From positions 1-42,370 of the forward strand of contig JACRLJ010000074.1 in NCBI GenBank assembly GCA_016215105.1: a stretch of DNA of 42,370 nucleotides. The letters are read 5' to 3'. The notes below the pieces were generated by a model. That model was not told where the DNA came from. It made no database searches and saw nothing but the letters and a program-made list of their open reading frames with translations. How positions within the stretch are numbered: the stretch's first letter is position 1; each line of letters opens with the position of its first letter. The position numbers and the translations under genes were made by a program. Positions 13,624 through 42,370 of this stretch are shown here, one piece after another. The DNA is from Candidatus Hydrogenedentota bacterium (GTDB taxonomy: Bacteria > Hydrogenedentota > Hydrogenedentia > Hydrogenedentales > SLHB01).

Positions 13624-13651
13624 CCAGACATAGCATAACGTGAGCAATCAC

Positions 13652-13684: not shown

Positions 13685-13756
13685 TCACCGTTTTCAGCGG
13701 GGTCAATGGGGCGTTCCGCGGAAACGGCCACGGCAACCCCGACAAAAGGATATCCG

Positions 13757-14272
13757 ATGAATCAGAAGAATTCCTACGACAGAGAAGATCTCCTGGCCTG
13801 CGCTCGAGGCGAGTTGTTCGGACCGGGAAACGCTGAAATGCCGATGCCGAATCTGCTCATGATGGACCGCATCCTGTCCATTACGGACGACGGCGGGGAA
13901 TATGGAAAAGGCGAGATCGTCGCGGAGATGGATGTTCGCCCCGACTTGTGGTTCTTTCAATGTCACTTCGTCAATGATCCAGTTATGCCGGGGTGTCTCG
14001 GATTGGACGCGCTGTGGCAGGGCGTTGGCTTCTTTCTCGGATGGAAAGGCTACCCTGGGCGCGGACGCGCGTTGGGTGTCGAGGAAGTGAAATTCCGCGG
14101 CCAGATTCTTCCAAGTGCAAAGTTGGTCACGTATCAAGTGACTATTCGCCGCGTGATGACCGGAAAGCTAATTATGGGAATCGCGGATGGAACTGTATCC
14201 GTGGATGGACGGAAGATTTACATGGCCAAGGGTCTCAAGGTCGGGTTGTTCACCAGTACCGAAGGTTTTTAG
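13757..14272 (+). CDS. fabA: 3-hydroxydecanoyl-ACP dehydratase/isomerase FabA
   Basis: A 171-residue hot-dog-fold enzyme of anaerobic unsaturated fatty acid synthesis. It dehydrates 3-hydroxydecanoyl-ACP and isomerises the trans-2 to the cis-3 double bond. The FabA block [20 protein letters not shown] is present; catalytic residues fall at H70 and D84, the positions known in E. coli FabA, and [16 protein letters not shown] follows. The start is ATG 13757 (AAAAGG upstream), because the longer frame from 13640 adds residues covering the preceding hairpin. fabB follows in the same direction, the usual partner pair, so this organism makes unsaturated fatty acids by the FabA-FabB route. Confidence 0.95.
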
Positions 14273-14393
14273 CGGCGCCTGCCAGTAGATAGAACGAGGA
14301 ATTGCTTCTCGACGCGCGTTGCGGTGAACGTGCGGTCGAGGAACTAGAACGAGAGGCGATTTGCCTGCGGCTCAGCCGCCTCAGAGGACTCCA

Positions 14394-15611: not shown

Positions 15612-15679
15612 GACGCTGCGTCCGCAATTGGCTGCGCCGCAGGAACAATGGCGCCAGTGAGTGTGTTATTAGGACCATC

Positions 15680-19330: not shown

Positions 19331-19474
19331 CGACGGGCGGCCCTTCTCTATTGCGCATCGAACTGTGTGCCGTGCGCCGGCTTTCTGACTCGACGCCACC
19401 GACCTGGACTAGGCGTTTCCGCCCGGGCTGTTGCGGCGAATTTAACACGTACGCTGCAAGGGAGAAATCATCGC

Positions 19475-21871: not shown

Positions 21872-21979
21872 CTGCGCATCGTTCTGGCCACGTGACGGCG
21901 ATGAGGCGCAACTATCAGCGAAACTCGTGGAGTTCAAGGCGCGCATGGCGTGTGACCCCCGAAGGAAGAACAGAACTCT

Positions 21980-23377: not shown

Positions 23378-23427
23378 GACACCGCTTTTGCCCTATCAGA
23401 ATCCGCGTGCCAGGAGAACGTCTGCCC

Positions 23428-25815
23428 ATGTGTGCCCTCGCCGTCCTAATCTCCTCCTCCGTTTGCGCCGCAGTTCCCGTTCAATACTCCTTTACGCTGT
23501 GGAATTGGGACACCAATTACCGTGACATTGCTGCGTTCCGCCGAACAGTTGACGCGTGCGCGGTTCATGGCTTCACGCTCATTGAGCTCGGCGCCGCGTG
23601 GGAAGACTGCGAAAAGCAGGAAGGACAATTCGACTTCAGTATCGTCGACGAGCGCGTGGCCTACGTTACTTCCACAGGGCTGGGGCTGCGTTTGCGGCCT
23701 AACCTCTACGATTGGCCGGCCTGGTATACGCCGGAGTTGTTCACGGACGCGAAGGGAGTCGCTTTTCCCCATTGCGGCGGGTACCCGAGCGTGTTCAACG
23801 CCGAGAATCGCAAGCGGCAATACCGGCTTTCTGGGGAACTCGCGAAGCACTGCGCCGGACATGGGTACACCTACAGTCCGGGCTTCAGCGTACACATGGA
23901 GGTCAAGTTTGCCGATTGGATCAGCTATGAGCCGTCGGCGCGCGCGGCGTTTCGCGCCTGGCTTGCCGGACGCTATGGGACGGTCGAGGCGCTCAACGCT
24001 GCGTGGAAAACGGCGCTAGCGTCTTTTCAAGAAATCGAGCCGCCCGTGCCGGCCGATACGGCGGGAAGTCCCTCGCTCGATGAACAGTCCAACGACTGGA
24101 TACGGTTTCGCGAGTTCGCGTTGGCGGATTGGGTCGCGGGCTTCGCCGCCGAAGTGCGGCTCAACGATCCCAGCGCCAGGATTTCCGTGCCGCTCGGCGA
24201 GAGTTACCGCCGGGAGTCGGCGCGCATGGCCAATCTGGGCTATTGGGCCTATTCGCGCCCGGCTGACGAGGTAGTACACTCCTACGACTTCTTCTGGCAC
24301 GGCAAGAACGGGCTCGAGAATAGCATGGCGTCGGTGGCGGCCTTCATCGGAATTACCCAGCGCCCGTCAATTCTCGAAGTGGACGGTCCGACTCTACTCG
24401 ACCAGTTCGGCTACACTCCCGCGGACCTGGTCCGTGTGGCGCGGTTCGCCCTCGAAGCCGGCGCGGCCGGAATCCAAGTTTCAAACTGGGGAGGGATCGA
24501 CGTCACGCAGTGGCCCTTCCTTTCCGAAGTTGGGGCGCTGGTCCGTGAGCGCCGCGCGCAAGGAGATTGGGAACTGCCCATGCCGTGTCCGACCTTGTAC
24601 TATGTCTCGAAATGGCAGAACTACGTTTATCGCGAGCCGTCGGAATGGGTTCATGACCGTCAATTCGGGTATTGGCTGACGCTACATCGAGCCGGCATTC
24701 CCGCGCGCATTGTGACCGACGAAAACCTGCTTAAGGAAGACTTGCGTGCGCAGACCATGGTCATTCCGTGCGGCGCTGTTATCGATGCGCCCGTGCGGGA
24801 CCGTCTTCGGGCTTTGTCCAATGGCATGCGAATCGTCGCGGACGATATCCCCGGTTTGTTCACCACCTCTCAGAAGACCGAAGGCCAGTTTGGCGCAAAG
24901 GTCGAGGTCTTGGATCGCCCGTTCGCGGAGGAGAAGCGCGCTCCCGCGGAGCTACTGGCCGCGTCTGACAAGGACGTCCAAACGCTGCGTGTGGCGGCCG
25001 TCCAGTTCCTGACCTCATTCGACGTGGCATCAAACGCGGCCAAGATCGTGGGATACATCCGCCAGGCTGCGGATCAGGGCGCGAAGGTGGTGGTGTTTCC
25101 CGAGATGGCGCTTACGGGCTACAGCAAGGCCGCTGACGCCTACGCCACTCTCGATTGGAAGACGGTCGAGGCGGGGCTAAGCGGCATCCGAAAGGCTTGC
25201 CAAGACCGCAAGGTCTACGCAATCGTCGGCGCCCCGATTCGGGATGGCGATGCCTGGTACTGCGCAGCGCTGGCTATCAATCCCGCGGGGGACATCATCG
25301 ACGCCTACGAGAAGACCTATCTCGCGGGAGAGGCCTGGGCAAAACCGGGCCGAAAGTTCACGACGTTCGACATCGAGGGCATTACCTGCGCCACGATCAT
25401 TTGCCATGATGAACGCTACGGGCCGTTGGTGCAGCTTCGCGCGCTTCGCGGCGCGCAATTGTTCTTCTACATCTCCTGTGAATCCGGCGCAAGCGCCGAG
25501 AACAAGCTCGGACCGTACCGGGCGCAGGTCCAAGCGCGCGCGGTCGAAAACAAAGTCTACGTGGTCCACGCCAATACTCCCGCGAACGCCGCGAATCCGC
25601 AAGATCCCGCCGCCTCCCACGGTGAGAGTCGTATCGTGGCGCCGGACGGCAATCTCATCACGGAGGCGCCCAGGTACGATGACGCCGTAGTCTACGCTGA
25701 CCTGAATCTGCGGCGTACGCCTCCGCGCCCAGGGAAAGCGGTAACCGAGGGACCTTTGGCCGCGTGGATGCAGCAGGGGCTTGACTTGGTAAACAGCCCC
25801 GGCAAAACGCCATAG
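23428..25815 (+). CDS. Secreted GH42-like glycosidase fused to a nitrilase-family amidase
   Basis: A 795-residue two-domain protein with an N-terminal signal-like segment (MCALAVLISSSVCAA). Residues about 20-390 resemble a GH42 beta-galactosidase barrel: FTLWNWDTNY, CEKQEGQFDF, RPNLYDWPAWY, and YEPSARAAFRAWLAGRYGT; E158 (HMEV) and E317 (ILEVDGP) are the likely acid/base and nucleophile. Residues about 395-515 form a glutamine-amidotransferase-like linker region. Residues about 525-775 are a carbon-nitrogen hydrolase with triad E559 (FPEMALTGYS), K629 (YEKTYLAG) and C659 (IICHDERYG). The protein should act outside the cytoplasm on a glycan-linked amide or on two successive bonds, but no substrate is known. 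Start: ATG 23428 with AGGAG at 23412-23416; GTG 23407 is less likely. Both active sites look intact. Confidence 0.8.
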   Translation: MCALAVLISSSVCAAVPVQYSFTLWNWDTNYRDIAAFRRTVDACAVHGFTLIELGAAWEDCEKQEGQFDFSIVDERVAYVTSTGLGLRLRPNLYDWPAWYTPELFTDAKGVAFPHCGGYPSVFNAENRKRQYRLSGELAKHCAGHGYTYSPGFSVHMEVKFADWISYEPSARAAFRAWLAGRYGTVEALNAAWKTALASFQEIEPPVPADTAGSPSLDEQSNDWIRFREFALADWVAGFAAEVRLNDPSARISVPLGESYRRESARMANLGYWAYSRPADEVVHSYDFFWHGKNGLENSMASVAAFIGITQRPSILEVDGPTLLDQFGYTPADLVRVARFALEAGAAGIQVSNWGGIDVTQWPFLSEVGALVRERRAQGDWELPMPCPTLYYVSKWQNYVYREPSEWVHDRQFGYWLTLHRAGIPARIVTDENLLKEDLRAQTMVIPCGAVIDAPVRDRLRALSNGMRIVADDIPGLFTTSQKTEGQFGAKVEVLDRPFAEEKRAPAELLAASDKDVQTLRVAAVQFLTSFDVASNAAKIVGYIRQAADQGAKVVVFPEMALTGYSKAADAYATLDWKTVEAGLSGIRKACQDRKVYAIVGAPIRDGDAWYCAALAINPAGDIIDAYEKTYLAGEAWAKPGRKFTTFDIEGITCATIICHDERYGPLVQLRALRGAQLFFYISCESGASAENKLGPYRAQVQARAVENKVYVVHANTPANAANPQDPAASHGESRIVAPDGNLITEAPRYDDAVVYADLNLRRTPPRPGKAVTEGPLAAWMQQGLDLVNSPGKTP

Positions 25816-29917: not shown

Positions 29918-30159
29918 GGTCCGGCTATGGTGAAGCTTGCGGCGTTCGTTCGGGCCCGCGCTCCGGCGACGGCCGGAACCCGTTTGAAGGCTCCTGAATG
30001 GCGATGGCTGTGTCCGAGTCCTGCTTCTTGGATGCTAATCCGTGTGCGAATCGCGAATGACGGTCTGGAGACAATGTGTTTCAATGAGTATGTGCCGTGC
30101 GCAGGTCTGTCAGTGCGCGCGGCTTCGACACGCGTATGACTAACGAAAGGTGTTTCATA

Positions 30160-31413
30160 ATGAGAAATCTGTCTGTAGCGCTAATCATCGCCTTGGTGAC
30201 CGTCGCGTGTAGCGACAGTGGTCCGGTTACCCAAACCAAGGAAATAACGAAAACCCAAGATGTCAAGGAAGCCCCGGCGGCGCCAGCAAAGCTCCCCACG
30301 AGCGCCGAGCGTTTCGGCACGGAACATGCTCATACGTCGGGCATGCCGGGCGCCGCGCCCGCGACGCCTGGCGCCATGGGAGGCGGTCAAGCGGTCTCAT
30401 TGGACTGGACCGCGCCGGAAGGCTGGGAGCAGGCCGCGGCAGCGCCCATGCGCCTCGTGACGTTCAAGGTGACTGGCGTCCCGGAAGCCGAGTGCTATGT
30501 AAGCACGGCCGGTGGCGGGCTCGAGGCGAACGCGAACCGGTGGCGCAAGCAGTTGGGACAGGCGGATTACACCGCGGATGAGTTCGCGAAGCTGCCCCGA
30601 GTTCCCGTGCTCGGCCAACAGGCCGCGATTGTGGAAATCGAAGGCGCCTATGCCGGAATGGGCGGCGGAGAGAAAAAGGAAGGGTACAAACTGTTGGGAG
30701 CTATCCTCGACTATCAAGGCACCGGCGTGTTTGTGAAAATGACCGGACCTGCGGCGGCGCTGGACAAGGAAAAGGCTCATTTTGACGCCTTTCTCGCGTC
30801 ACTCAAGCCCGGCGCAGCGAAGCCGGAGGCCCAAGTCGCGGCGGGCGCTGAATTGCCTGCCGGCCACCCCGCCACGCCGGCTACTGGCCAACTGCCTGCC
30901 GGCCACCCCACCACGCCGGACACCGGCCAGTTGCCTGCCGGCCACCCCACCGCTGGAGAAGTTGGCGGGATGACGGACGGCGCGAGCGTCGCTCCCTTTA
31001 CCTGGACGGCCCCGGATTCTTGGAAAAAAGCCGCGGATCGTCCCATGCGCGTTGCAACCTACACCGGTGGGGCCAACGCAAAGTCCGAGTGTGTCATCAG
31101 TATGCTCTCCGGCCCAGCAGGCGGTCTTGACGCAAACATAAACCGCTGGCGCGGCCAACTAGGTCAAACCCCGCTGCAGTCCGCTGATATCGCGGCGCTG
31201 CCCAAGGTCAAGGTCCTGGGGAAGGACTCACCACTGGTCGAAATCACCGGACCCTACACCGGTATGGACGGCGCCGAGCAGCCCGGCTACATGCTGCTGG
31301 GAGCGGTGTCGGAAGTGCCCGGCAGCACCGTGTTCATCAAGATGATCGGACCGGAAGCCGAAGTTAAGGCGGAAAAAGAACATTTCATCGCGTTTTGTCA
31401 ATCACTCAAGTAA
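30160..31413 (+). CDS. Lipoprotein with a duplicated domain and tandem-repeat linker
   Basis: A 417-residue exported protein. The N terminus MRNLSVALIIALVTVAC looks like a lipoprotein signal with the cysteine at 17, though the -3 residue is unusual (Thr). Two copies of a domain of about 130 residues follow: the first has WTAPEGWEQAAAAPMR and the second WTAPDSWKKAADRPMR. Each continues with NRWR(K/G)QLGQ, LP-(R/K)-V-x-VLG, VEI-(E/T)-G-x-Y-(A/T)-GM and ends HF-(D/I)-AF. The linker (about 230-270) has three copies of LPAGHP. I do not know a function; the domain occurs mainly in PVC-type bacteria as far as I recall. It precedes resB by 10 bases, so it is probably co-transcribed with cytochrome maturation genes. 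Confidence 0.75.
   Translation: MRNLSVALIIALVTVACSDSGPVTQTKEITKTQDVKEAPAAPAKLPTSAERFGTEHAHTSGMPGAAPATPGAMGGGQAVSLDWTAPEGWEQAAAAPMRLVTFKVTGVPEAECYVSTAGGGLEANANRWRKQLGQADYTADEFAKLPRVPVLGQQAAIVEIEGAYAGMGGGEKKEGYKLLGAILDYQGTGVFVKMTGPAAALDKEKAHFDAFLASLKPGAAKPEAQVAAGAELPAGHPATPATGQLPAGHPTTPDTGQLPAGHPTAGEVGGMTDGASVAPFTWTAPDSWKKAADRPMRVATYTGGANAKSECVISMLSGPAGGLDANINRWRGQLGQTPLQSADIAALPKVKVLGKDSPLVEITGPYTGMDGAEQPGYMLLGAVSEVPGSTVFIKMIGPEAEVKAEKEHFIAFCQSLK
30853..30955 (+). repeat. 39-base in-frame tandem repeat (about 2.6 copies)
   Basis: Units start at 30853, 30892 and 30931, each beginning TTGCCTGCCGGCC or CTGCCTGCCGGCC. The period is 13 codons, encoding LPAGHPTTP-x-TGQ. It forms the flexible linker of the lipoprotein and could vary in copy number by slippage. 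Confidence 0.85.
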
Positions 31414-31423
31414 GGTGGTATCA

Positions 31424-32611
31424 ATGCGTAAAGCAGTCAAGCTGACGTTGGATTTCCTTGCCTCGTACGGGTTTGCAGGAGTGATCTTTCTGCTGCTGCT
31501 CCTACTGGTGTTCTTGGGAACGGTCGAACAGGTCAACCAGGGATTATTCGAGGTCCAGAAGAAGTACTTCGAGTCAATCTTTCTCGTGCATTACTTCTTC
31601 GGCAAAATCCCCGTGCCATTGCCGGGGGTTTACCTGCTGCTAGCCCTGTTCACGCTCAATATTATGGCGGGGATGGTGCTTCGGATGCGGCGCGGCCTGG
31701 CGCACCTCGGCGTGCTGATTGTCCACATCGGCATGGTGCTCATGATTGTCGCCGGTTTCGTGAAGTTCAAGTTCTCGGACGACGGCAATCTGGCGCTGTG
31801 GGAACATGACCAAGCCAATGTGTTTGAGAGCTATCACGACTACGAATTGGCGATTACCCCGGTCGGCGTATCCGGTCCCGTCAAGGAATATGTCATTACT
31901 GGAGATCAGTTTACTAAATTGCGGCCTGAGCAGGTGGTTACGTTCCAAAATGCTGAACTTCCATTCGACTTGACCCTGACGGGCTTTGTGAAGAACGGTA
32001 CACCACGCCAAAAAGGCCCGATGGTGACGGTAAGCGCGAAGGCTGTCGACGGGTTCTATATCGAGCCGTTGAGCATTGAGAAGGACGCGGAGCGAAACCT
32101 GCCCTGCGCCTATGTCACCGTGAAAGACAAGAAGACCGGTGAATCGCAGGATGGAATACTGGTTACTTCGACCCGTCAGCCGGGCTTTCCGCCTGTGGCG
32201 TGGTATGCGCAGTTGGACGACAAGACCTGGAAGGTAGATTTGCGCAAGAGGCAGGTGCAATTGCCCTTTACGATTGTGCTCGACAAGTTCACTCATGAGT
32301 TGCATCCCCGCACCGCGATGGCGAAAGCGTTCATGAGCGACGTCACCAAAATCGAAGACGGCTCCGAGCAGCAGGTGAAGATTGCGATGAACGAGCCCTT
32401 GCGGCACGAAGGGTATACCCTCTTCCAGTCGTCATTTGGACCGTCCAACGCCTCCCCAGGCGAACGGATGTACTCGGTGTTTGCGGTTGTTCGTAATCCT
32501 TCGGACCAGTGGCCGCTGTATTCCTGCATCATCATTACGGTGGGCTTGGTAGTTCATTTCACGCAAAAACTGCTCAAGTATCTGCGGGCAGAAAGCAAGA
32601 GGCGCGCATGA
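31424..32611 (+). CDS. resB: ResB/CcsB-type cytochrome c biogenesis protein
   Basis: A 395-residue membrane protein. It has a hydrophobic start with LASYGFAGVIFLLLLLLVFLGTVEQ, a second pair of helices (VYLLLALFTLNIMAGMVLRM and HLGVLIVHIGMVLMIVAGFV), a large extracytoplasmic domain (about 120-365), and a last helix near 370-385. This is the ResB order, and with CcsA it forms the system II haem exporter/ligase that attaches haem to CxxCH motifs outside the membrane. Its start ATG (31424) has AAGGTGG at 31412-31418; GTG 31415 is an alternative. The stop overlaps the ccsA start (ATGA), so the two are translationally coupled. Confidence 0.88.
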   Translation: MRKAVKLTLDFLASYGFAGVIFLLLLLLVFLGTVEQVNQGLFEVQKKYFESIFLVHYFFGKIPVPLPGVYLLLALFTLNIMAGMVLRMRRGLAHLGVLIVHIGMVLMIVAGFVKFKFSDDGNLALWEHDQANVFESYHDYELAITPVGVSGPVKEYVITGDQFTKLRPEQVVTFQNAELPFDLTLTGFVKNGTPRQKGPMVTVSAKAVDGFYIEPLSIEKDAERNLPCAYVTVKDKKTGESQDGILVTSTRQPGFPPVAWYAQLDDKTWKVDLRKRQVQLPFTIVLDKFTHELHPRTAMAKAFMSDVTKIEDGSEQQVKIAMNEPLRHEGYTLFQSSFGPSNASPGERMYSVFAVVRNPSDQWPLYSCIIITVGLVVHFTQKLLKYLRAESKRRA

Positions 32612-34659
32612 AGACACGTTTGTTTGGGCGATGGGCATTGGCGGCGGGGCTGGCGTTGGTGTGGGCTGGCGCAGCCATCGGCCAGGCTGTGGAAAGCGGT
32701 GTCCCAGCGCCGCCAACCGTGCAAAAGCGGACACCCTGGGACTCCGAGATTCTTGCTGCGTTCTCCAAAATGCCCGTCCAGGATGATGGGCGCGTAAAGC
32801 CATTGGATACGTTCGCGCAATTCCGGTTGCTGCGTTTCAACGGCAAGCGCGAGTGCGTCACGCCCTGGAAGGAAACGCTGTCGCCGATAGCGTGGTTGCT
32901 GGACTCGCTCTTCTACCCGGAACTGGCCGAACAGTACAAAATGTTCGTCGTGCCCAGTTGGGATGCGCTTGACGCCGCCGGTATCAAGCACGAGGGCAAA
33001 AACAAGCGCGACCGCTACTCCTACGTCGAGCTATTCACCGGACGCCAGGCGCTGATGACGAAAGCGCAGGAGTTGGGGCACAAGGAAGAGAAGGACCGCA
33101 CGACCACCGAACAACAAATCGTGAGCCTCGCGATGAGCATGCGGGACTTCGAGATGATCACCCACTACCTCGATTTCGCGCGTACGCCGTTGTCCATCCC
33201 GAGTTCGCCTGGAATGGCCAACCTGTTCCCGAACCCCGCCGAGGTCCGGTACGCGGATGTGCTCTCAAAGGCGGGCGTGATTCGTGGCGCCATGGCAACG
33301 CTGCAGGCCGGTGGAGCCGATGTCGATGAGGCAACCAAGAAAAAAGAGCTTGAAAACATTCGCAGTCTGCTGGCGCAGTTGGACAAGTTGGGTGGTATGG
33401 CCAGTGAGCTGGCGCTGTTCCCGCCGTCCGTCACTGTGAAAGAACAACCCGCGTGGTCCGCCCCGGCCGATCTTATCGAGAAAGCGTTTACCGGAGAAGT
33501 GGCGCCGGAAAAACAGATTGCGCTGCTGGGCTCACTCGAGAATCTGGTGAAACAACGCGACGACCGCATCGCCTTCCGCGGTACCCTTACCGGAATGAAT
33601 CAGGACGTCGTAGCGTTGGCGAGCGCGCGCGGCGAATATGGCAAGATCCCGCTCGAGGTGTTCCTATACAAGTCGCAATTCCTGTATTGGAGTCTCTGCG
33701 TATTTGTGCTTGGGTTCGTGCTGGTCGCCTCGTCCTGGCTGGCGCCCCGCAGCCGGATCCTCGGCAATATCCCCTGGCTCGCGGCTGTTCCGGGGCTTGC
33801 CCTATTAACAACGGTCATCGTGCTGCGCTGCATCATTCGTGGCCGTCCGCCCGTCACCACGCTGTATGAAACGATTCTATTCATCACCGCCACCGCCGTG
33901 TTCGTTGCGCTGGTAATCGAGTACATGAATCGTCAACGCATCGCGCTGGCGCTAAGCACGCTGCTGGGCAGCCTCGGACTCTTCCTTGCCTACAAGTTCG
34001 AGCTGCAGCAGGGTACGGACACGATGCCCAATCTCGTGGCCGTGCTTGATACGAACTTTTGGCTGGCCACCCACGTGACTACCGTTACGATTGGATACTC
34101 GGCGGGATTGTTGGCCGCCGCCGTCGCGCACGTATACGTCATCGGTCAACTGATAGGCTTCAAGAAGAGCGACAAAGCGTTCTATAAGTCGCTTACCCGC
34201 ATGGTGTACGGCGTGGTGTGCTTCGGCTTGGTCTTCTCCACCGTCGGAACCGTTCTCGGTGGAATCTGGGCGAACTACAGTTGGGGCCGCTTCTGGGGAT
34301 GGGACCCAAAGGAAAACGGCGCGCTGATGATCGTGCTGTGGGAACTCGCCGTCTTGCACGGGCGTATGGGCGGGTACATTCGCGATTTTGGAATGAATAT
34401 GACGGCCATATTTGGCGGCATGATTGTCGCGTTCAGTTGGTTTGGCGTAAACCTCCTTGGCGTCGGACTGCATGCCTACGGGTTTACTAGCGGCATATTC
34501 AGCGCATTGCTAGTGTTCTATATCATCGAGACGATCGTGCTCTTCCTTGGCGCAGGGCTGTGGATTGGCCGGCGCGGAAGTTCGGACACGCCCGCCAGCG
34601 CTACTAAGGGCAAACACCTGCCGGCGTCGGCCGATTCGAAAGCGGCCAGGGCTCGATAA
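32608..34659 (+). CDS. ccsA: CcsA-type cytochrome c haem-attachment protein with N-terminal extension
   Basis: A 683-residue membrane protein. A signal-like N terminus (MKTRLFGRWALAAG... AIGQA) leads a roughly 340-residue extracytoplasmic region with no recognised fold, then about eight helices of the CcsA/CcmC/CcmF superfamily. The haem-handling WWD motif is WGRFWGWDPKENGALM, with histidines in THVTTVTIGYSAG and in the C-terminal GVGLHAYGF. It overlaps resB by four bases. The long extension resembles that of CcsA proteins in bacteria with split CcsB and CcsA; its job may be apocytochrome handling, but that is inference. It should serve the cytochromes encoded downstream. Confidence 0.88.
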   Translation: MKTRLFGRWALAAGLALVWAGAAIGQAVESGVPAPPTVQKRTPWDSEILAAFSKMPVQDDGRVKPLDTFAQFRLLRFNGKRECVTPWKETLSPIAWLLDSLFYPELAEQYKMFVVPSWDALDAAGIKHEGKNKRDRYSYVELFTGRQALMTKAQELGHKEEKDRTTTEQQIVSLAMSMRDFEMITHYLDFARTPLSIPSSPGMANLFPNPAEVRYADVLSKAGVIRGAMATLQAGGADVDEATKKKELENIRSLLAQLDKLGGMASELALFPPSVTVKEQPAWSAPADLIEKAFTGEVAPEKQIALLGSLENLVKQRDDRIAFRGTLTGMNQDVVALASARGEYGKIPLEVFLYKSQFLYWSLCVFVLGFVLVASSWLAPRSRILGNIPWLAAVPGLALLTTVIVLRCIIRGRPPVTTLYETILFITATAVFVALVIEYMNRQRIALALSTLLGSLGLFLAYKFELQQGTDTMPNLVAVLDTNFWLATHVTTVTIGYSAGLLAAAVAHVYVIGQLIGFKKSDKAFYKSLTRMVYGVVCFGLVFSTVGTVLGGIWANYSWGRFWGWDPKENGALMIVLWELAVLHGRMGGYIRDFGMNMTAIFGGMIVAFSWFGVNLLGVGLHAYGFTSGIFSALLVFYIIETIVLFLGAGLWIGRRGSSDTPASATKGKHLPASADSKAARAR

Positions 34660-34687
34660 TACAGTTTCAGACAACCCGATTTTGTTT

Positions 34688-34745
34688 GCGGCCTTCTACG
34701 TATCTGGGATTCGCGTTTCCTGACATGTAGAAGGCCGCTTCTTTT
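34688..34745 (+). terminator. Intrinsic terminator after ccsA
   Basis: GCGGCCTTCTAC (34688-34699) and GTAGAAGGCCGC (34727-34738) form a perfect 12-bp stem with a 27-base loop, followed by TTCTTTT (34739-34745). It lies 28 bases past the ccsA stop. This closes the lipoprotein-resB-ccsA unit. Confidence 0.75.
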
Positions 34746-35184
34746 CGTGGTTATCCTCCGGGGAAATGCCGCCCACATATCGTGTTAGACCAGCAGATTC
34801 CTTTCTGAACTGTGCAAGCGGGACATATCCGTTCAGAACAAAGCTGTCCTGCGATACATCCCCCATCGCCCGCCACATCACCCCGCAATGCTCCCGCTCC
34901 AAGATAAGTACGCTTTCCCCAGAACTTTACATATTCGTACTATCAACCTTTTCCCTGGAATGCTTCTTGCGCAATTCCAGGCGCTTCCGGTGGGAAGACG
35001 ATGCGGTTTCATAAATGGCAGTGTTAGTTACCGGTTTACACGACGTGGTGTTCATTTAATGACGCGCCGTCGGTTTTCGCGGGTTTGTACGGGGCCGGTC
35101 TTGACTGTGTCTTAAGTGTGATGAACGGTTGTCGACCGGCTTCTCAGAGACGCGGTTGTCTATGACGCGAAGTAACGAGGTCTT
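34746..35184. other. Roughly 440-base spacer without a recognisable gene
   Basis: After the ccsA terminator only short frames remain, on both strands, with no family match. A promoter for the cytochrome module is expected here, but I see no convincing -35/-10 pair with the spacing used elsewhere. Confidence 0.35.
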
Positions 35185-35481
35185 GTGGGCAGAACAAACA
35201 TTGTGACGCGCTTTGTGCGCGCCGTGACGTGGGTGCTTAAACCCGAGCGGCTAACTGACCAGTTTCCGTTGCCACCCCATGCTTCCGGGGTCAAACGGCA
35301 AACGTTCCTGCATTGGCTATTCGCTTCGGAGACTTTGCCGCAGGTACAGCACGTCGATGCGCCGGCGCGGCTTGGATTTGTGCGGAATCTCTTTGCGCGC
35401 GAGCGCTTGCCGCTTGCCGACTGCGCCGATGCGTCCAAGGCGAGGACCGGAGCAGTATCACGAGGAAAGAAAGGTAATTGA
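35185..35481 (+). CDS. Small triple-repeat protein ahead of the cytochrome module
   Basis: A 98-residue basic protein, GTG start at 35185 with ACGAGG just upstream, ending one base before the next gene start. It holds three copies of a short hydrophobic motif: AVTWVLKPERLT (about 13-24), FLHWLFASETLP (about 41-52) and FVRNLFARERLP (about 65-76), each of the type aromatic/aliphatic-x-x-hydrophobic-[Lys/Ala]-[Pro/Ser/Arg]-E-x-L. Comparable small repeat proteins next to respiratory genes exist in related bacteria as far as I recall, with no assigned role. Each repeat could be a short amphipathic helix lying on the membrane. The tight link to the cytochrome gene is the best support that it is real. 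Confidence 0.55.
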   Translation: MGRTNIVTRFVRAVTWVLKPERLTDQFPLPPHASGVKRQTFLHWLFASETLPQVQHVDAPARLGFVRNLFARERLPLADCADASKARTGAVSRGKKGN

Positions 35482-35482
35482 C

Positions 35483-35962
35483 ATGGACCATACCAAACAC
35501 CTTTGGCGGGTTGTGCTGATCCTGGTTTTAGCAGGCGCGGGAGCAATTATCGGGCGGCACTTTCTCATTCCAAAATCGTTCGGCGAACAGGGCTTTTACC
35601 GGTACGACAGCCTTGGCGATTACATGACTCAGCCCGTGCGGCACGGTGGGGACGCCGCCTGTGCGGCGTGTCACAAGGACAGGGCGGACGCCAAAGCCGG
35701 CGGGAAACACGCGACGGTCTCGTGTGAGTCCTGTCACGCGCCCATGGCGTCGCATGCGACGACGGAAGCCAAAACCGCGGACATGCCGAAAAACCGCGAC
35801 ATGACCTTGTGCCTGTGGTGCCATCAGAAGCTTCGTGCGAGACCCGAAACTATGCCGCAAATCGAGATTAGCGAGCATTTGGCGGCTCTTGATCCGGAAG
35901 ACGCAAAAAAAGCCGACGTTTGCTTCAATTGCCATGACGTTCACAATCCGTCAATGAAATAG
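35483..35962 (+). CDS. Membrane-anchored tetrahaem cytochrome c
   Basis: A 159-residue protein. One N-terminal helix (LWRVVLILVLAGAGAIIG) anchors it, and four haem sites follow: CAACH, CESCH, CLWCH and CFNCH. Extra histidines (KHATVSCESCHAPMASH, SEHLAAL) can supply distal ligands. It resembles NrfH/NapC-like or small DmsE-like carriers that pass electrons between a quinol-oxidising membrane subunit and a periplasmic partner. It starts one base after the triple-repeat protein and 14 bases before the ferredoxin gene, so it is part of one operon with the Fe-S and NrfD subunits. Haem attachment would need the ResB/CcsA pair encoded upstream. Confidence 0.87.
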   Translation: MDHTKHLWRVVLILVLAGAGAIIGRHFLIPKSFGEQGFYRYDSLGDYMTQPVRHGGDAACAACHKDRADAKAGGKHATVSCESCHAPMASHATTEAKTADMPKNRDMTLCLWCHQKLRARPETMPQIEISEHLAALDPEDAKKADVCFNCHDVHNPSMK

Positions 35963-35976
35963 GAGGCGGGCGCGAG

Positions 35977-36807
35977 ATGCCATATATGAAGGGCGAACCC
36001 ATGAATGACAACAAAGAGATGAAGAGTGATGCGGCGCTGGAGGTCTCGCGGCGCGACTTCCTTGGTACAATCGCGGGCGCCTTGTCCGCGGTTGCGCTGG
36101 TGATCGTCGCGGATGACGCGGTATACATCGCGTCCGGGGCCGAACCCGGAGCGCCCCTGCCCGCCGGTGGATACGATCCCGACAAACACAGCTACGTGTA
36201 CGTGATTGACATTACGAAGTGCATCGGGTGCGGCTCCTGCGTGCGCGCGTGTAAGGCCGAGAATAATGTGCCGGACCTCTTCTTCCGAACCTGGATCGAG
36301 CGCTACATGGTGTCGCGCTCAGGCGAGGTTAGCGTCGATTCGCCGAAAGGCGGATACGACGGGTTCGATCCGTCGATCACGGGGGACGAAATCACCAAGG
36401 CCTTCTTCGTCCCAAAAATGTGCAATCACTGTTCCCACAGCCCGTGTGTGCAGTTGTGTCCCGTGGGGGCCTCGTATCGGAGTCCGGACGGAGTGGTGCT
36501 CGTTGACGAGAAGCGTTGCATCGGTTGTGGGTACTGCGTCCAAGCCTGCCCATACGGTTCGCGTTTCCTGAATCCGGAGACAAAAGTCGCGTCGAAATGC
36601 ACGTGGTGTTATCACCGGATTACGAAGGGAATGCGGCCCGCGTGCGTCGAGATGTGCCCCAGAGGCGTTCGCAAGTTCGGCGATGCGAAGGCGCTTCACG
36701 ACGAAGTGTCCGAGATCATCGCCACGAAACAAGTCCATGTGCTTAAGCCAGAGCTGCTCACCGAGCCCAACCTCCATTATCTCGGCTTGAGCATGGAGGT
36801 GCGGTAA
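35977..36807 (+). CDS. Tat-exported four-cluster ferredoxin subunit (NrfC/DmsB-like), module 1
   Basis: A 276-residue iron-sulphur protein. The N terminus has a twin-arginine signal (SRRDFLGT plus a hydrophobic stretch), so it should be folded before export. Four cysteine groups are complete: CIGCGSCVRAC, CNHC...CVQLCP, CIGCGYCVQACP and CTWC...CVEMCP, enough for four [4Fe-4S] clusters as in DmsB, NrfC, PsrB and TtrB. Such subunits wire a catalytic or haem partner to an NrfD-type quinone subunit. The start is ATG 35977 with AGGAGG at 35961-35966; ATG 36001 is possible but has no site. Its stop overlaps the nrfD start by one base. Confidence 0.92.
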   Translation: MPYMKGEPMNDNKEMKSDAALEVSRRDFLGTIAGALSAVALVIVADDAVYIASGAEPGAPLPAGGYDPDKHSYVYVIDITKCIGCGSCVRACKAENNVPDLFFRTWIERYMVSRSGEVSVDSPKGGYDGFDPSITGDEITKAFFVPKMCNHCSHSPCVQLCPVGASYRSPDGVVLVDEKRCIGCGYCVQACPYGSRFLNPETKVASKCTWCYHRITKGMRPACVEMCPRGVRKFGDAKALHDEVSEIIATKQVHVLKPELLTEPNLHYLGLSMEVR

Positions 36808-37994
36808 TGTTGCAGGAGAGCCTGAATTTCGTTTTCCCAAATGACTTCCACATCATGTGGAGTCTCATGATTGTCATATATCCCTACGTGACCGGAATTG
36901 TAGCGGGAGCCTTCATCGTCTCGTCTCTGTACCACGTCTTCGGCCGGGACGAACTGAAGCCGGTGGGACGCTTGTCCATGGTGGCCTCGCTGGCGTTCCT
37001 GCTAATTGCAACGACGCCTCTGTTGCTGCACCTGGGGCATCCCGAGCGGGCGCTCAACATCGTAATCACGCCTCACTTCACTTCGGCAATGGCCGCGTTT
37101 GGAATGATCTACACCTGTTACTTGACCCTGTTGACCCTCGAGATCTGGCTTGTCTACCGCAAGGACATCATTATGGTCGCGGCGCGAAGCCGGGGGATCA
37201 AGCGCGTCATCTTCTCCGTCCTGTCGCTGGGCGTATACGACATTTCAGAGGAATCCTTACGCATCGATCATCGCGCCATTATCGTACTGGCGTCCCTCGG
37301 TATACCCGCCGCGTGCATCCTTCACGGCTATGTCGGCTTCATGTTCGGCTCGGTGAAAGCCAACGCCTGGTGGTCGACGCCGCTGATGCCCATCATCTTC
37401 CTGTTTTCTGCGGTAACCTCGGGTATTGCCATGATCATCATCCTGTATCAGTCGTTGATGCGGCTGAGCGGCCAGAAGATCATAGGCGAGTGTGTCCAGT
37501 CCCTGTCACGGTGGCTTTGGCTGTTTACGATTATGACGGTGACGTTGGAAATGCTGGAAATCATCAGCCTCGCCTACAAGAAGGGCGAGGAGTGGCTGGT
37601 AATCGGGCCGCTGCTCGGCACCAAACTTGCCTTCCCATTCATCGCGGTGCAGGTGGTGTTTGGGTCGTTGATACCGATAGTTCTTCTTGCGATTGTGGTG
37701 CTGATGAAGCCGTTCCTCACGAACCCGCTGCGCAACACGATCGCGTTCGTGGCGTCTCTCATTCTGTTGATTCAGGTATTTGCGATGCGCTGGAATGTGG
37801 TGATTGGCGGCCAGATATTCTCCAAGAGTATGCGGGGGTTCAGAGACCCTTACGTTCCGGAACTATTCGGCCGCGAAGGCGCCTTGGCGGCAATCGCTAT
37901 CTTTATTACTCCATTTGTCCTTCTTGCCATCTTCAACAAGTTTCTTCCAATGTATGAGACATCGGACGAGCCCAGCGGTGGTGAATCCGCATAG
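36807..37994 (+). CDS. NrfD/PsrC-family membrane subunit, module 1
   Basis: A 395-residue integral membrane protein with about nine or ten helices and family marks: WSLMIVIYPYVTGIVAGAF, TTPLLLHLGHPERALNI, HGYVGFMFGSVKANAWW, and MTVTLEMLEIISLAYKKGEEW. NrfD-like subunits bind and oxidise or reduce quinones, and in some complexes carry protons. It overlaps the ferredoxin stop by one base (TAATG), so the two subunits are made together. With the tetrahaem cytochrome it would form a quinol-to-haem electron path, in a direction not fixed by sequence. A 328-base spacer follows with no gene I recognise. Confidence 0.9.
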   Translation: MLQESLNFVFPNDFHIMWSLMIVIYPYVTGIVAGAFIVSSLYHVFGRDELKPVGRLSMVASLAFLLIATTPLLLHLGHPERALNIVITPHFTSAMAAFGMIYTCYLTLLTLEIWLVYRKDIIMVAARSRGIKRVIFSVLSLGVYDISEESLRIDHRAIIVLASLGIPAACILHGYVGFMFGSVKANAWWSTPLMPIIFLFSAVTSGIAMIIILYQSLMRLSGQKIIGECVQSLSRWLWLFTIMTVTLEMLEIISLAYKKGEEWLVIGPLLGTKLAFPFIAVQVVFGSLIPIVLLAIVVLMKPFLTNPLRNTIAFVASLILLIQVFAMRWNVVIGGQIFSKSMRGFRDPYVPELFGREGALAAIAIFITPFVLLAIFNKFLPMYETSDEPSGGESA

Positions 37995-38322
37995 AGGGAC
38001 CTGCGTGGCCTATCTGAACTGAATCGGCCTCGCGAACTTTTCGGGCATGTCCCGGTCGAGAGGCGCTGTCTGACCGGTGGCTTGAAATCGAATGTGTGCG
38101 TTCGAGGCGTTGGTCTTTGCGCAACGCGGCTGGAGCGGCCAGCCGTCAGGTTTGGGAACTGGTTAGCTTCGTTGTCCACAACTTCCACGTTGTTCGCGTA
38201 GATGTTGCGGACAAAGAAGTCATACCAATCACTCTGCCGTTGCGGCCGGGCCGCATTAGGCTAGCCATGCAAGACCCCCAGGCGGCGCGGCTGCCGTCAG
38301 GTGGATCTGAGGATCCCGTGAT
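37995..38322. other. 328-base spacer without a recognisable gene
   Basis: No open frame with a family match or a clear promoter was found. The only marked sequence is TTGTCCACA (38172-38180), which is discussed among the rejected items. Confidence 0.35.
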
Positions 38323-40125
38323 ATGTCAGAGACACCGGCCTTTCATGATAATCGCGTCGAGGAGCTGGCTGAGCAGGTTCGTGCGCTTTCGGCCAAGGTG
38401 GATGATCTGACTGCCCAACTCCGATCCCTTGGCGCTTCTCGAACGGAAATGGTCGAGTTGCCCCAACTTGACCGCACCAGTCCCCACGCCCCGGCGCATG
38501 ACAAGGCGGCGGTCAGCGCTCCAATAGTTCTATCGAATATTGCCCTCGTCAGTTTCTTGCTGGTCGTCGCGCTGGTTCTCCGCACGGTTGCCGACAACGG
38601 CATCGTAAACCGCGAGCTTGGAGCCATGCTCGGCGCGGGGTACGCCTTCGCGCTGATTGCGTACGGCTTCCTTCGGCAACGGCGGAGGCCGGTGCGCTCC
38701 GTGGTCGTGGTGAGCAGCGCGGCGCTCCTAAGCTTCTCGATTGCCCTGGAAACCCATGTGCGTTTCGGATTTCCTTCCTCGCCGCTGGCCTATGCCATGC
38801 TCGGTCTAACGCTCATTACCGTGACCGCCTATGGATTGCGCGCGAAAAACGCGTTTCCAATTTGGATTGGCGTGTTGGGAGCAAGCCTCACCGGGATCGT
38901 CATGGATTTCCCGCACCCCCGATTCGACTGTATGGCGGTGTTGGTTGTGCTGACGGCATGGGATTCCTATGCCGCGATTCGGCTTCCCAAGGCCCGGGGG
39001 CTGGTGTGGTACTCGTTGATTCTGACGTTGGTCTTCTGGGCGTTGTGGACCACGAAAGTGCGATTTGCCCTCGCGCACGGTCTGCAAACCGGACCGGGCC
39101 TTTCACTGCCGTGGCTGGCGCCCGCGATCACGGTGATGGCGGCCGGTTACGTCGTGATGGTGTTGGTCTCGGTTCTGAGCGAGGCCTGGTCGTATCGAAA
39201 GTTCGAGGCGTGCGCGCCCGTGGCCAATGCGGTTGGGTTCTATGCCGTGATGCGCTGGGTAGTCCTGCCGTGGACAGGCGACCACGGAATGGTCCAAGCG
39301 GCGGTCGCCGTAGCCGCGGGGGTCTATCTTGTCATTGCCGCGGTACTGGCCGCCCGCGACAAGTTGCGCCACGCCCACGCCGTGACCGGTTTTACGCTCG
39401 GAGCCGCCGGTCTCGTTTGTGTTTCGTCGTGGGCCGCCGTCGGAAACTCCGCCGTCGAGGTCGGCGTCTGGTCGCTCAGTGCGATGTTTGTGTGGTTGCT
39501 GTCCGTGCGTTGGCGCAACCATGACGTGCGCGCAATCTCGCATCTGTGGCAAACCTACACCTGCGTAACCGCGCCGGTCTGGGCGAGGTTCTGGGCGGTA
39601 CCCGCGACGCAAACCACCGTGTGTATTTCAGCGGCGTTGAGCGCGTTGTGCGTGGCGCAGTTCGTGCGCATACGGCGCGCCGCCCCGAAACCCGCGGCTG
39701 GACTATGTGAACGCCTTGACCCGGCCGACCGGCTTGCTATACTGGTCTTGTTCGCGGGATTGGCCTATGGGTTCGTTACGATTCGGGCCGCGCTCTACTT
39801 GGCCATCGTTACGCTTGGGAACGCGGGCGAAATCGTATTTCAGTCCGCCCAAACCGTGACGATCAACGGCTGTGCGCTGGGGCTTGGCATAATCGGGTTG
39901 CGGCGGGAGAATCGAGAGACGCTGGCCGCGGCGCTCATTGTCGCGGGGGTGGGAGCCGTAAAAGTGTTCGGATATGACCTCACCCATACGGCTGGCGTAC
40001 CATTGGTGATCAGCGTATTCTCATTTGGAGTAATGGCCGCCATCGGCTCCTTTATCTGGGGACAGTGGCAACGGCGGACGGCCGATACCGGCGCCCGCCC
40101 GCAGACCGATCGGCTCGACGGATAG
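38323..40125 (+). CDS. DUF2339-like multi-helix membrane protein
   Basis: A 600-residue protein. A short N-terminal coiled coil (VEELAEQVRALSAKVDDLTAQLRSL) is followed, after a Pro/Ala-rich linker, by about sixteen hydrophobic helices to the end. This order matches DUF2339 (PF10101) membrane proteins, whose function is unknown. There is no catalytic motif that I can identify. GAGGAT lies a normal distance before the ATG. It sits between the two NrfD modules in the same direction, and its expression with them is plausible but unproved. It could be an accessory to the redox complex or simply a neighbour. Confidence 0.65.
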   Translation: MSETPAFHDNRVEELAEQVRALSAKVDDLTAQLRSLGASRTEMVELPQLDRTSPHAPAHDKAAVSAPIVLSNIALVSFLLVVALVLRTVADNGIVNRELGAMLGAGYAFALIAYGFLRQRRRPVRSVVVVSSAALLSFSIALETHVRFGFPSSPLAYAMLGLTLITVTAYGLRAKNAFPIWIGVLGASLTGIVMDFPHPRFDCMAVLVVLTAWDSYAAIRLPKARGLVWYSLILTLVFWALWTTKVRFALAHGLQTGPGLSLPWLAPAITVMAAGYVVMVLVSVLSEAWSYRKFEACAPVANAVGFYAVMRWVVLPWTGDHGMVQAAVAVAAGVYLVIAAVLAARDKLRHAHAVTGFTLGAAGLVCVSSWAAVGNSAVEVGVWSLSAMFVWLLSVRWRNHDVRAISHLWQTYTCVTAPVWARFWAVPATQTTVCISAALSALCVAQFVRIRRAAPKPAAGLCERLDPADRLAILVLFAGLAYGFVTIRAALYLAIVTLGNAGEIVFQSAQTVTINGCALGLGIIGLRRENRETLAAALIVAGVGAVKVFGYDLTHTAGVPLVISVFSFGVMAAIGSFIWGQWQRRTADTGARPQTDRLDG

Positions 40126-40178
40126 CGTGGCGTCTCCGGGGTAAGAGCCCCTGGCGGCGAACGAGAGGAACCTAGGAA

Positions 40179-40802
40179 ATGAACCAAGACCGGATTCAGT
40201 CCGCCGCCATTCTGGCAATCGCGGTGGTCCTGTTCGTAAGCTGCCTGGAGTCGTGTTCACCACTCCCGTCAATAGCCGCATCAACGGCGCTGTACGAGAG
40301 GGACACTTCCGCTGGCCTCTCGGATATCGCGCCAGTTCGCGGCCCGGTACGGCCTTTGCGCCTGCACCGGGACGGCGACGAAACAGAGTGTACCCTGTGC
40401 CACGATGGTTTCGCCGGCGACAAGACTGAAGAGGCCCTGAAGAACGAGCATGCCGATCTGAAATTCAATCACGGTCTTAATCTACTGTGTCTCAACTGTC
40501 ATCACCCCAAGAATTCGATGGCGTATGTCTATCACGATGGCAGCGAGATTCCCAGCGACCAGCCCACGCGGCTGTGCGCCAAGTGCCACGGACCGCATTA
40601 CCGCGAGTGGATGATTGGACTCCACGGCCGCGTGAACAAGTACTGGGATCCCAGCCAGGGCGATCAGACAAAGCTGGATTGTATCCAGTGCCATAATCCG
40701 CATCATCCCAGGTTCGAGTCGATGGCGCCGATGCCGCCTCCAACCCTTACCCGGTTCGAAAAAGTAACCAAAGAAGGAGAGTCCGATGGCGGATCACACT
40801 GA
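40179..40802 (+). CDS. Exported tetrahaem cytochrome c, module 2
   Basis: A 207-residue protein. An N-terminal hydrophobic stretch (AAILAIAVVLFVSCLESC) acts as a signal, possibly a lipoprotein one. Four haem sites follow: CTLCH, CLNCH, CAKCH and CIQCH, with extra histidines such as FNHGLN, CHHPKN and LHGRVN for distal ligands. It is like the first cytochrome in haem number but not in sequence, so it is a second, divergent electron carrier. Its last 17 bases overlap the start of the next gene. A good AAAGAAGGAGA site for that gene lies inside its own 3' end. Confidence 0.87.
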   Translation: MNQDRIQSAAILAIAVVLFVSCLESCSPLPSIAASTALYERDTSAGLSDIAPVRGPVRPLRLHRDGDETECTLCHDGFAGDKTEEALKNEHADLKFNHGLNLLCLNCHHPKNSMAYVYHDGSEIPSDQPTRLCAKCHGPHYREWMIGLHGRVNKYWDPSQGDQTKLDCIQCHNPHHPRFESMAPMPPPTLTRFEKVTKEGESDGGSH

Positions 40803-41760
40803 TCACGAGGAAGCAGCGGGCCAATCGCAGCCGCTCTTTCCCGGTGAAAGCGGTACGACTGGACGCCGTGGCTTCCTCAAGGCAGGCATGGGCACCATGG
40901 CGGCCCTGGCGGCGGCGGCCGGAGCCCTCGAGCCGCTGCGGTCGCTGAAGGATGGGCCTACGGCGGAAGAGTTTCTGCGGCAGCATTACACGCGCCTTAC
41001 CCCCAGCATGATGGAAGAGGTATTGCATCGTGTCGAGGAACGTGTCGCGTCAGACTATGGCGCCAAAGCTCATGTCGGCGATTATAAGCCGATTCCCGGT
41101 GTCGAGTTCGCCTATGCGCTGAATCTGAGCCGCTGCAATGGCTCGCGCCGTTGCGTCTATGCGTGCATGAAAGAGAACAATGTTCCTCTCGATCATCCGG
41201 AAATGGCGTACATTCGAGTGCTCGAAATGGAGATCAAATCGCTCGACCTCGAAGAAGGCGACGTCAGGTTTGACGCTGAAGCCGTGCCGCGCGAGGGAAA
41301 GTTCTACATGCCTATCGCGTGCCATCAGTGTTCGAAACCTCCCTGTACGAAAGTGTGCCCGGTCGAGGCGACATGGCCCGAGCCCGACGGCATTGTCGCC
41401 ATTGACTACAGTTGGTGCATAGGGTGCCGCTATTGCATGGCGGCCTGCCCCTACGAGGCGCGCCGCTTCAATTGGACCAAACCCGAGTTCGCGCCCGAAG
41501 ATATCAACCCCGATATGGGTTATCTGAGCAACCGTCCACGCCCGCGTGGCGTCGTCGAAAAGTGCCATTTCTGCATGCATCGAACTCGGCAAGGGAAGAA
41601 CCCGGCGTGCGCGGAAGTGTGCCCGACCGGCTCGCGCATCTTCGGAAACCTCCTGGACCCGGACGGGAGAATTCAGTTCATTCTCAAGAACAAGCGAGTG
41701 TACGTCCTCAAGGCCGAAGCCAGGACCATACCCCGCTTTTATTACTTCTTTGACAACTAG
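40786..41760 (+). CDS. Tat-exported ferredoxin subunit, module 2, with a changed cluster
   Basis: A 324-residue iron-sulphur protein, longer than its counterpart at 35977. A Tat-like signal (GRRGFLKAGMGT) lies near residue 27. Cysteine groups 2, 3 and 4 are complete: CHQC...CTKVCP, CIGCRYCMAACP and CHFC...CAEVCP. The first group reads C117-N-G-S120-R-R-C123-V-Y-A-C127, so Ser120 replaces the second cysteine, predicting a [3Fe-4S] or a lost cluster. The N-terminal region before it (about 50-110) has no match and is absent from the module-1 protein. It would carry electrons between the tetrahaem cytochrome and the NrfD subunit downstream. Confidence 0.9.
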   Translation: MADHTDHEEAAGQSQPLFPGESGTTGRRGFLKAGMGTMAALAAAAGALEPLRSLKDGPTAEEFLRQHYTRLTPSMMEEVLHRVEERVASDYGAKAHVGDYKPIPGVEFAYALNLSRCNGSRRCVYACMKENNVPLDHPEMAYIRVLEMEIKSLDLEEGDVRFDAEAVPREGKFYMPIACHQCSKPPCTKVCPVEATWPEPDGIVAIDYSWCIGCRYCMAACPYEARRFNWTKPEFAPEDINPDMGYLSNRPRPRGVVEKCHFCMHRTRQGKNPACAEVCPTGSRIFGNLLDPDGRIQFILKNKRVYVLKAEARTIPRFYYFFDN

Positions 41761-41874
41761 AAATAGGTCTCTTGGCCTGCGTCCATCGGCGGCGAAATCC
41801 GCCGGCGCTGACAGCGAGTTGACACCATTGACCGCTCGAGGGTGAAGCCACCCCAACGCGTCACGGGAGCGATT

Positions 41875-42370
41875 ATGATTCGAAGTTACGTAACCTTCTT
41901 GGGTAGAGCGTTCAAGCTCAGTTTCGCGGGCGGACGTCTCTACTACTGTTGGATGTTTGCCCTGACCGTCCTGGCGGTGATTGGAGCGCGCGCATTCTGC
42001 CAACAGACCGTGGCCGGTTTGACTGTGACCGGAATGACGGACCAGATATCGTGGGGCGTCTACATCGCGAACTTCACGTTTCTGGTCGGTATCGCGGCCG
42101 CGGCCGTCATGCTGGTCATTCCGGCCTACATCTACCGCCAAAAAGAAATTCACGACGTGGTATTGTTCGGCGAATTGCTCGCCATTGCCGCCATCGTCAT
42201 GTGCTTGTGTTTTGTGACCGTCGATCTTGGCCGCCCCGACCGCTTTTGGCACCTGATGCCCTTTGTCGGCAAAATGAATTTTCCGCGTTCCATGCTGGCG
42301 TGGGACGTCATCGTGCTCTCCGGATATTTGCTGGTGAACCTTCACATCTGCGGGTACCTGCTGTACATGA
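41875..42370 (+). CDS. NrfD/DsrP-like membrane subunit, module 2, cut by the window edge
   Basis: The first 165 residues of a membrane protein that runs off the right edge. Helices are clear (LYYCWMFALTVLAVIGARAF, SWGVYIANFTFLVGIAAAAVML, ELLAIAAIVMCLCFVTV), and VDLGRPDRFWHL followed by NFPRSMLAWD is the pattern of the DsrP/HmcC branch of the NrfD family. ATG 41875 follows GGGAGC. The gene therefore differs in subtype from the NrfD of module 1. The 114 bases before it hold no gene I recognise. What lies beyond, including any catalytic subunit, cannot be seen. Confidence 0.85.
   Translation, partial: MIRSYVTFLGRAFKLSFAGGRLYYCWMFALTVLAVIGARAFCQQTVAGLTVTGMTDQISWGVYIANFTFLVGIAAAAVMLVIPAYIYRQKEIHDVVLFGELLAIAAIVMCLCFVTVDLGRPDRFWHLMPFVGKMNFPRSMLAWDVIVLSGYLLVNLHICGYLLYM

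Follow-up and report, generated by a model that had tools for sequence, protein, structure and literature searches.

Tandem NrfD modules, a DUF2339 membrane protein and a putative outer-membrane electron conduit in a Hydrogenedentota genome

Gene content of the locus

The stretch of DNA analysed here (hereafter the window) is 42,370 bp long and represents an entire contig (C32; JACRLJ010000074.1) of a Candidatus Hydrogenedentota bacterium, whose 6.7 Mb genome (GCA_016215105.1) is a fragmented metagenome-assembled genome of 171 contigs, with genes called by simple open reading frame (ORF) rules. Toward its end, the window contains two modules, each encoding a tetrahaem c-type cytochrome, a ferredoxin of the type exported by twin-arginine translocation (Tat) and an NrfD-family membrane subunit, with a gene for a DUF2339-family membrane protein between them; all of these genes, and the two cytochrome c maturation genes upstream, lie on the forward strand. 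This composition of the modules had been proposed in an initial annotation of the window and is borne out by four CXXCH motifs in each cytochrome and by Pfam and NCBIfam matches. Orthologues of the module genes with 60-80% identity keep the same gene order in other genomes; the gene content therefore cannot be put down to chance. No structured RNAs or tRNAs were found in the window.

The cytochrome of module 1 (35483..35962, with its ATG start at 35483) has an N-terminal membrane anchor (one transmembrane helix) and matches Cytochrom_c3_2/Cytochrome_C7, and its orthologues in three other genomes (G009, G010 and G031) also carry four haems. It is followed by a Tat-type ferredoxin of the NrfC/TtrB/CbcT type (35977..36807; PF13247, 95 bits) with an RR pair at residue 25 and 16 Cys residues that make up four [4Fe-4S] motifs of four Cys each, conserved across 16 homologues with a single substitution. 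The NrfD-family quinone-binding membrane subunit (36807..37994) matches PF03916 with 128 bits (cut-off 25.8), and a sequence search of the PDB returned no match for it. Upstream of module 1 are resB, a System II cytochrome c maturation gene (31415..32611; PF05140, 77 bits), and a gene for a ccsA/ccsB-type haem lyase with a long N-terminal extension (32509..34659; PF01578, 88.6 bits), which scores 128 bits against TIGR03144, under the cut-off of 187.6; both are located where the initial annotation had placed them.

Module 2 begins with a tetrahaem cytochrome (40179..40802) that has a weak match to the NrfB model. Its ferredoxin (40786..41760; RRGF at residue 27) is DsrO/QrcC-like, with DsrO as the best model (174 bits) and QrcC as the second (156 bits, cut-off 400), both below cut-off. 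Serine occupies position 120, where a cluster Cys is expected, which leaves 15 cluster Cys in place of 16. Among 77 module-2 ferredoxins (the window and 76 named loci drawn from the best 80 matches of the scan; here and below, all counts were taken over mutually related genomes), position 120 is Cys in 52 and Ser or Asn in 25. Because Ser120 stands for a cluster Cys, the first cluster may be a [3Fe-4S] in the subclade to which the window belongs. The last gene (start at 41842 or 41875) encodes the N-terminal part of a DsrP-like NrfD subunit and is cut at position 42370 by the window edge, which is a contig end and not a biological boundary. The fragment scores 197 bits against NCBIfam DsrP, 85 bits against PF03916 (cut-off 25.8) and 28 of 570 bits against QrcD. 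The two NrfD proteins are of different subtypes, as previously suggested. Module 2 is present once in its own genome.

Quinone-reactive NrfD proteins are recognised by an Asp, Glu or His in transmembrane helix 2 and a Ser near the entry of the pocket (PMC8076601). Both NrfD proteins of the window have these residues (His75 and Asp128, respectively, in helix 2; Ser93 and Ser150 at the pocket entry) in at least 98% of homologues, with His75 and Ser93 invariant (100%) across 18 homologues of module 1 and Asp128, Ser150 and Asp155 conserved at 98% in the alignment of module-2 homologues. Given this conservation, both proteins should react with quinone, unlike ActF. To our knowledge, ActF is the only second NrfD inside one complex.

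The initial annotation omitted the 600-aa polytopic protein encoded between the modules (38323..40125), which begins after a gap of 328 bp. Its match to PF10101 (27.3 bits) is below the cut-off of 33.6, and PF10101 is detected in 13 of 13 aligned homologues. The predicted structure is all-helical (mean pLDDT 73.5). Assignment to a known fold was dropped, with no PDB match below E = 0.02.

Continuation of the locus on a second contig

A search of the genome with PF03916 identified four pieces: the module 1 gene, an alternative complex III gene on contig C89, an N-terminal half where the window ends and a C-terminal half at the end of contig C43. The C43 end continues the DsrP frame with the remaining 231 residues and falls 11 residues (~31 bp) short in comparison with seven homologues. 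The two contig ends share no sequence. We infer that C43 follows the window, with support from the similar G+C and tetranucleotide use of the contigs. The possibility that the C43 half is a second copy was rejected, as the genome contains one N-terminal and one C-terminal half, each at a contig end.

Read from the DsrP end, C43 (L027) first encodes a 482-aa ImcH-type protein (14249-15697, reverse strand) with a NapC/NirT domain (PF03264), one CX3CH motif (CGKTCH) and five CX2CH motifs, then a decahaem OmcA/MtrC protein (11481-13607, reverse strand; TIGR03507, 416.8 bits, cut-off 209.3). The remaining genes are on the forward strand and encode two CbcL-type c/b cytochromes, one with 19 CX2CH motifs (7920-10706) and one with 11, each with a C-terminal b561/formate-dehydrogenase-gamma-like membrane domain; an MtrA/DmsE-like octahaem cytochrome with similarity to the DmsE and GSU2203 families; a 566-aa protein predicted to form a many-stranded beta-barrel (mean pLDDT 76); a 14-haem cytochrome; and a cytochrome c554-like protein. 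Published features of ImcH are N-terminal transmembrane helices, one CX3CH, 5-9 CX2CH and similarity to NapC/NirT (PMC6295460), and the C43 gene shows the NapC/NirT similarity and both motif counts. Both fusion cytochromes agree with the published features of CbcL (PMC6295460); against the 3 to 23 motifs published for such proteins, the 19 CX2CH motifs of the larger one are a high number. The nearest PDB structures to the barrel model in Foldseek are outer-membrane barrels with modest TM-scores; identity with MtrB/PioB was rejected, with no Pfam or NCBIfam match.

The initial annotation had noted the absence of a molybdopterin subunit and had recommended looking past position 42370 for such a gene or for cytochrome genes. 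The cytochrome genes are on C43, but a molybdopterin partner beyond the edge was rejected: the contig stops at 42370, and no molybdopterin subunit is encoded in the last 12 kb of the window or on C43. The presence of several quinol-oxidising and multihaem cytochrome genes on C43 agrees with the quinone:cytochrome exchange role that had been proposed for the modules.

The related genome G031 carries conduit genes and module 2 on a single contig, and the linkage between module and conduit is thus independent of the join between the window and C43. This 25 kb contig (C339; L054, L028, L069) contains ccsA, resB, c554, 14-haem, barrel and 8-haem genes and, divergently, OmcA/MtrC, an ImcH-like gene and module 2, the cytochrome of which is 70% identical to that of the window; the resB-ccsA pair, also present in the window, borders the porin-cytochrome cluster on this contig. 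Genome G034 has 14-haem, barrel and 8-haem genes followed by module 2 and DUF2339. A 2018 survey of ImcH genes reported no mtrAB adjoining imcH (PMC6295460), and the placement of an ImcH-like gene beside OmcA/MtrC and a barrel-cytochrome cluster, seen on C43 and in L069, is an arrangement absent from that survey.

Distribution of the modules and the DUF2339 gene

Full-strength module 2 is present in 13 of the 60 Hydrogenedentota genomes compared. Module 1 occurs in five of the 60, all within those 13 (P ~2e-4 if the genomes were independent). The search for the double module that had been suggested earlier found it in 16 of the 76 named loci of other genomes (17/77 with the window). Module 1 comes first in Hydrogenedentota (the window and L070) and Elusimicrobiota (L091), and module 2 comes first in Geobacteraceae, Desulfuromonadales, deltaproteobacterial metagenome-assembled genomes, Bacteroidota (L120) and Armatimonadota (L127). 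On the module-2 tree, at least eight changes of tandem status are needed. The tandem loci of Geobacteraceae and Desulfuromonadales (L121, L137, L140, L145 and L146) adjoin CbcL-like and ImcH-like genes.

In three genomes (G010, G030 and G031), module 1 and DUF2339 stand alone, apart from module 2, and the two modules are thus separable units. The initial annotation had named separate transcription and separate complexes as evidence against its reading, and the separate loci in these three genomes go part of the way in that direction. These separate loci are compatible with the explanation that two unrelated respiratory units are merely adjacent in this genome, as are the 328 bp between module 1 and DUF2339 and a scan of the window that detected six promoter-like sites (2.8 expected) and six terminator-like sites (7.7 expected), a pattern favouring neither separate nor joint transcription. 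However, the recurrence of the tandem in several phyla and in both orders, with its repeated gains or losses, and the restriction of module 1 to genomes with module 2 make chance adjacency very improbable.

The DUF2339 protein tracks the NrfD modules across phyla (the window, L049, L050, L051, L029, L030 and Geobacteraceae loci) and belongs in an account of the locus. Its homologues are found in exactly six of the 60 Hydrogenedentota genomes and adjoin module 1 or module 2 in all six. Of 17 tandem loci, 12 have a DUF2339 gene no farther than 10 kb from module 2, compared to 1 of 60 others (P = 2e-9, relatedness ignored). A tree-aware pair test of tandem status against DUF2339 gave changes in the same direction 3.3 times and in the opposite direction 0 times, with pairs too few for significance. 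The gene is nearly always single-copy in tandem genomes outside Hydrogenedentota, and its position varies: it can follow module 1, precede module 2 in divergent orientation or lie at a distance of a few genes. No mention of a link between DUF2339 and NrfD modules was found in the open-licence literature searched, in which the ten papers mentioning DUF2339 are, by their titles, on unrelated subjects. Through its linkage to the modules, DUF2339, which is without a known function here, gains a testable context in respiration.

Many other copies of module 2 have a different partner. In 10 of the 13 Hydrogenedentota genomes with module 2, the next gene after the module encodes an octahaem cytochrome from the hydroxylamine oxidoreductase family (PF13447), for which the best PDB match is 4qo5, ahead of hydroxylamine oxidoreductases. 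Across the 77 loci, an octahaem gene lies within 6 kb of module 2 in 26 and module 1 lies within 6 kb in 17, with none having both (Fisher P = 4e-4, relatedness ignored); none of the 26 loci linked to an octahaem gene has DUF2339 within 10 kb of module 2. In the ferredoxin tree, module 1 forms one branch (SH-aLRT 99), and module 2 of the window groups with two porin-cytochrome-linked copies and the tandem copy of G009 (SH-aLRT 100). Because this clade is nested among octahaem-linked Hydrogenedentota copies (SH-aLRT 98), the tree suggests that module 2 was rewired from a nitrogen-oxide reductase partner to a conduit, a history that is a suggestion only, as the tree is a quick build with long branches. 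The split between copies with an octahaem partner and those with module 1 and DUF2339 raises the question of rewiring between a soluble and an extracellular acceptor.

These patterns bear on the possibility that module 2, and perhaps module 1 as well, provides the quinol-oxidising arm for an octahaem nitrite reductase encoded elsewhere in the genome, comparable to NrfBCD for NrfA. Besides the frequent pairing of module 2 with a directly adjacent octahaem gene (26-27 of 77 loci), the genome of the window itself encodes a 73% identical octahaem cytochrome (C149:70371-71738, L067) beside narHJI and two NarK-type transporters, which is likely a nitrite reductase, and it has a single module 2 that could serve it. 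Nevertheless, we consider this role unlikely: no copy of module 2 is near both an octahaem gene and module 1, the window copy falls within the porin-cytochrome-linked subclade, G034 and G009 carry module 2 without an octahaem match, and both kinds of module 2 occur in G031 at different loci, pointing to specialised paralogues.

Proposed function

The analysis establishes the gene content, the conserved quinone-site residues and the conserved linkage of the locus. From these we infer the menaquinol donor, the direction of electron flow, the hand-over partners and the number of complexes (one or two). At a probability of about 0.68, the two modules would encode inner-membrane menaquinol:cytochrome c oxidoreductases that feed an outer-membrane conduit and serve as the entry point of a gene island for extracellular electron transfer. 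In each module, NrfD would oxidise menaquinol at a quinone site on the periplasmic side, the ferredoxin clusters would carry electrons from this site to the tetrahaem cytochrome, and the latter would pass them to periplasmic multihaem cytochromes and on to the conduit formed by the 8-haem, barrel and OmcA-MtrC proteins of C43. We propose that the cytochrome network itself accepts the electrons, which would explain why a dedicated catalytic subunit is missing. With the ImcH-like and CbcL-like genes nearby, several quinol oxidases acting in parallel would be encoded on the island; quinol-oxidising proteins of these kinds operate over different redox potentials in G. sulfurreducens (PMC12307469). 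The locus would provide a near-complete gene set from menaquinol to the cell surface in Hydrogenedentota, a phylum whose physiology is barely described.

Several observations weigh against this interpretation. Module 2 could act in trans for nitrite reduction through the C149 octahaem protein beside narHJI and narK, and it is linked to octahaem cytochromes of this family in many other genomes. Module 1 stands alone, far from conduit genes, in three genomes. The connection between the window and C43 is indirect, with no sequence overlap and ~31 bp missing. CbcL-type proteins also occur in Fe(II)-oxidising bacteria (PMC6295460), and flow could be inward. In addition, all of the evidence derives from sequence.

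Inward flow would mean that the modules run in reverse, delivering electrons from outside the cell (from Fe(II), an electrode or a partner cell) to the quinone pool, in the manner of Qrc and Nhc, which draw on periplasmic cytochrome c3. Either direction of operation is represented among NrfD complexes (PMC8076601, Table 1), QrcC is the second-best model for the module-2 ferredoxin, QrcC and ActB each carry one [3Fe-4S] cluster (PMC8076601), and an aerobic sink exists, given the COX2 and alternative complex III genes in the genome. However, Fe(III) reducers are the only reported source of ImcH-type proteins (PMC6295460), and with one encoded beside module 2 in L069 and another on C43, reverse operation appears quite improbable.

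It is tentatively possible, although doubtful, that modules 1 and 2 and the DUF2339 protein together form one undescribed seven-subunit double-NrfD quinol:cytochrome c oxidoreductase serving extracellular respiration in several phyla. Such a complex would have two active quinone sites, unlike ActC/ActF, with the DUF2339 protein as a further membrane subunit.

Comparison with known systems

Among known systems, Geobacter CbcSTU (Cbc4) matches the composition of a single module. CbcSTU consists of a four-haem c-type cytochrome, a 4Fe-4S ferredoxin and an integral-membrane subunit and is described as a menaquinol:ferricytochrome c oxidoreductase (PMC10989804, PMC11434368). Each module of the window has the same composition, likewise without a catalytic subunit, a match by published description and not by sequence; the window differs in having the module doubled, in two divergent subtypes, and tied to DUF2339 and an outer-membrane conduit. 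The initial annotation had likened the modules in outline to Hmc, Qrc or alternative complex III and had stated that none of these layouts fits exactly; instead, CbcSTU matches, with DsrJOP and NrfBCD close, and the tandem arrangement itself recurs elsewhere. The single modules are therefore known, but the tandem is recurrent yet apparently undescribed in the open-licence literature, and DUF2339 is apparently a new genomic partner. Relatives of the modules are present in metal-respiring bacteria such as Geobacteraceae, the tandem loci of which offer tractable relatives. Identification of the double module with Geobacter Cbc6 (CbcMNOPQR) was dropped, since Cbc6 has b-type, 10-haem and 5-haem cytochromes (PMC10989804).

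DsrO and DsrP are the top-scoring models for module 2, but the scores are under the family cut-offs, the module has a tetrahaem cytochrome in place of the trihaem DsrJ, and neither DsrM nor DsrK is encoded in the window or on C43, which distinguishes the locus from DsrMKJOP. In the NrfBCD and MccCD-SirCD arms, a small cytochrome (or none), a ferredoxin and NrfD feed a multihaem reductase; homologues of module 2 elsewhere similarly adjoin an octahaem reductase-like cytochrome, but the reductase gene is absent from the window locus. Qrc, Nhc and Hmc share the architecture of multihaem cytochrome c, ferredoxin and NrfD, and module 2 has a QrcC-like ferredoxin; however, the window modules are without a QrcB-type subunit or a six-, nine- or sixteen-haem cytochrome. 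For Qrc specifically, the hexahaem QrcA and the molybdopterin-like QrcB are absent, and the QrcC and QrcD models score below cut-off. The presence of two NrfD-type subunits recalls ActC and ActF of alternative complex III, but the quinone-site residues are conserved in both NrfDs of the window, each of which is paired with a separate ferredoxin. A search for the genes that define alternative complex III (pentahaem ActA, the ActB fusion, ActC and ActD-F) did not find them at this locus, and the true ActB/ActC locus is on C89. Finally, with no molybdopterin catalytic subunit in the last 12 kb or on C43, the locus does not belong with the CISM molybdoenzymes.

Other genes in the window

Just upstream of resB, positions 30097-31413 encode a lipoprotein-like protein that is internally duplicated and contains LPAGHP repeats, for which no family match was found. 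Farther upstream, a FabA-like dehydratase (PF07977) with a ketosynthase-like ORF after it (13640-15611) suggests an anaerobic route to unsaturated fatty acids. A phosphoenolpyruvate carboxylase-like ORF is followed by an SbtA-type bicarbonate transporter (19367-22981; PF05982, 389 bits), and an 802-aa ORF (23407-25815) joins a GH42-like domain to a carbon-nitrogen hydrolase domain.

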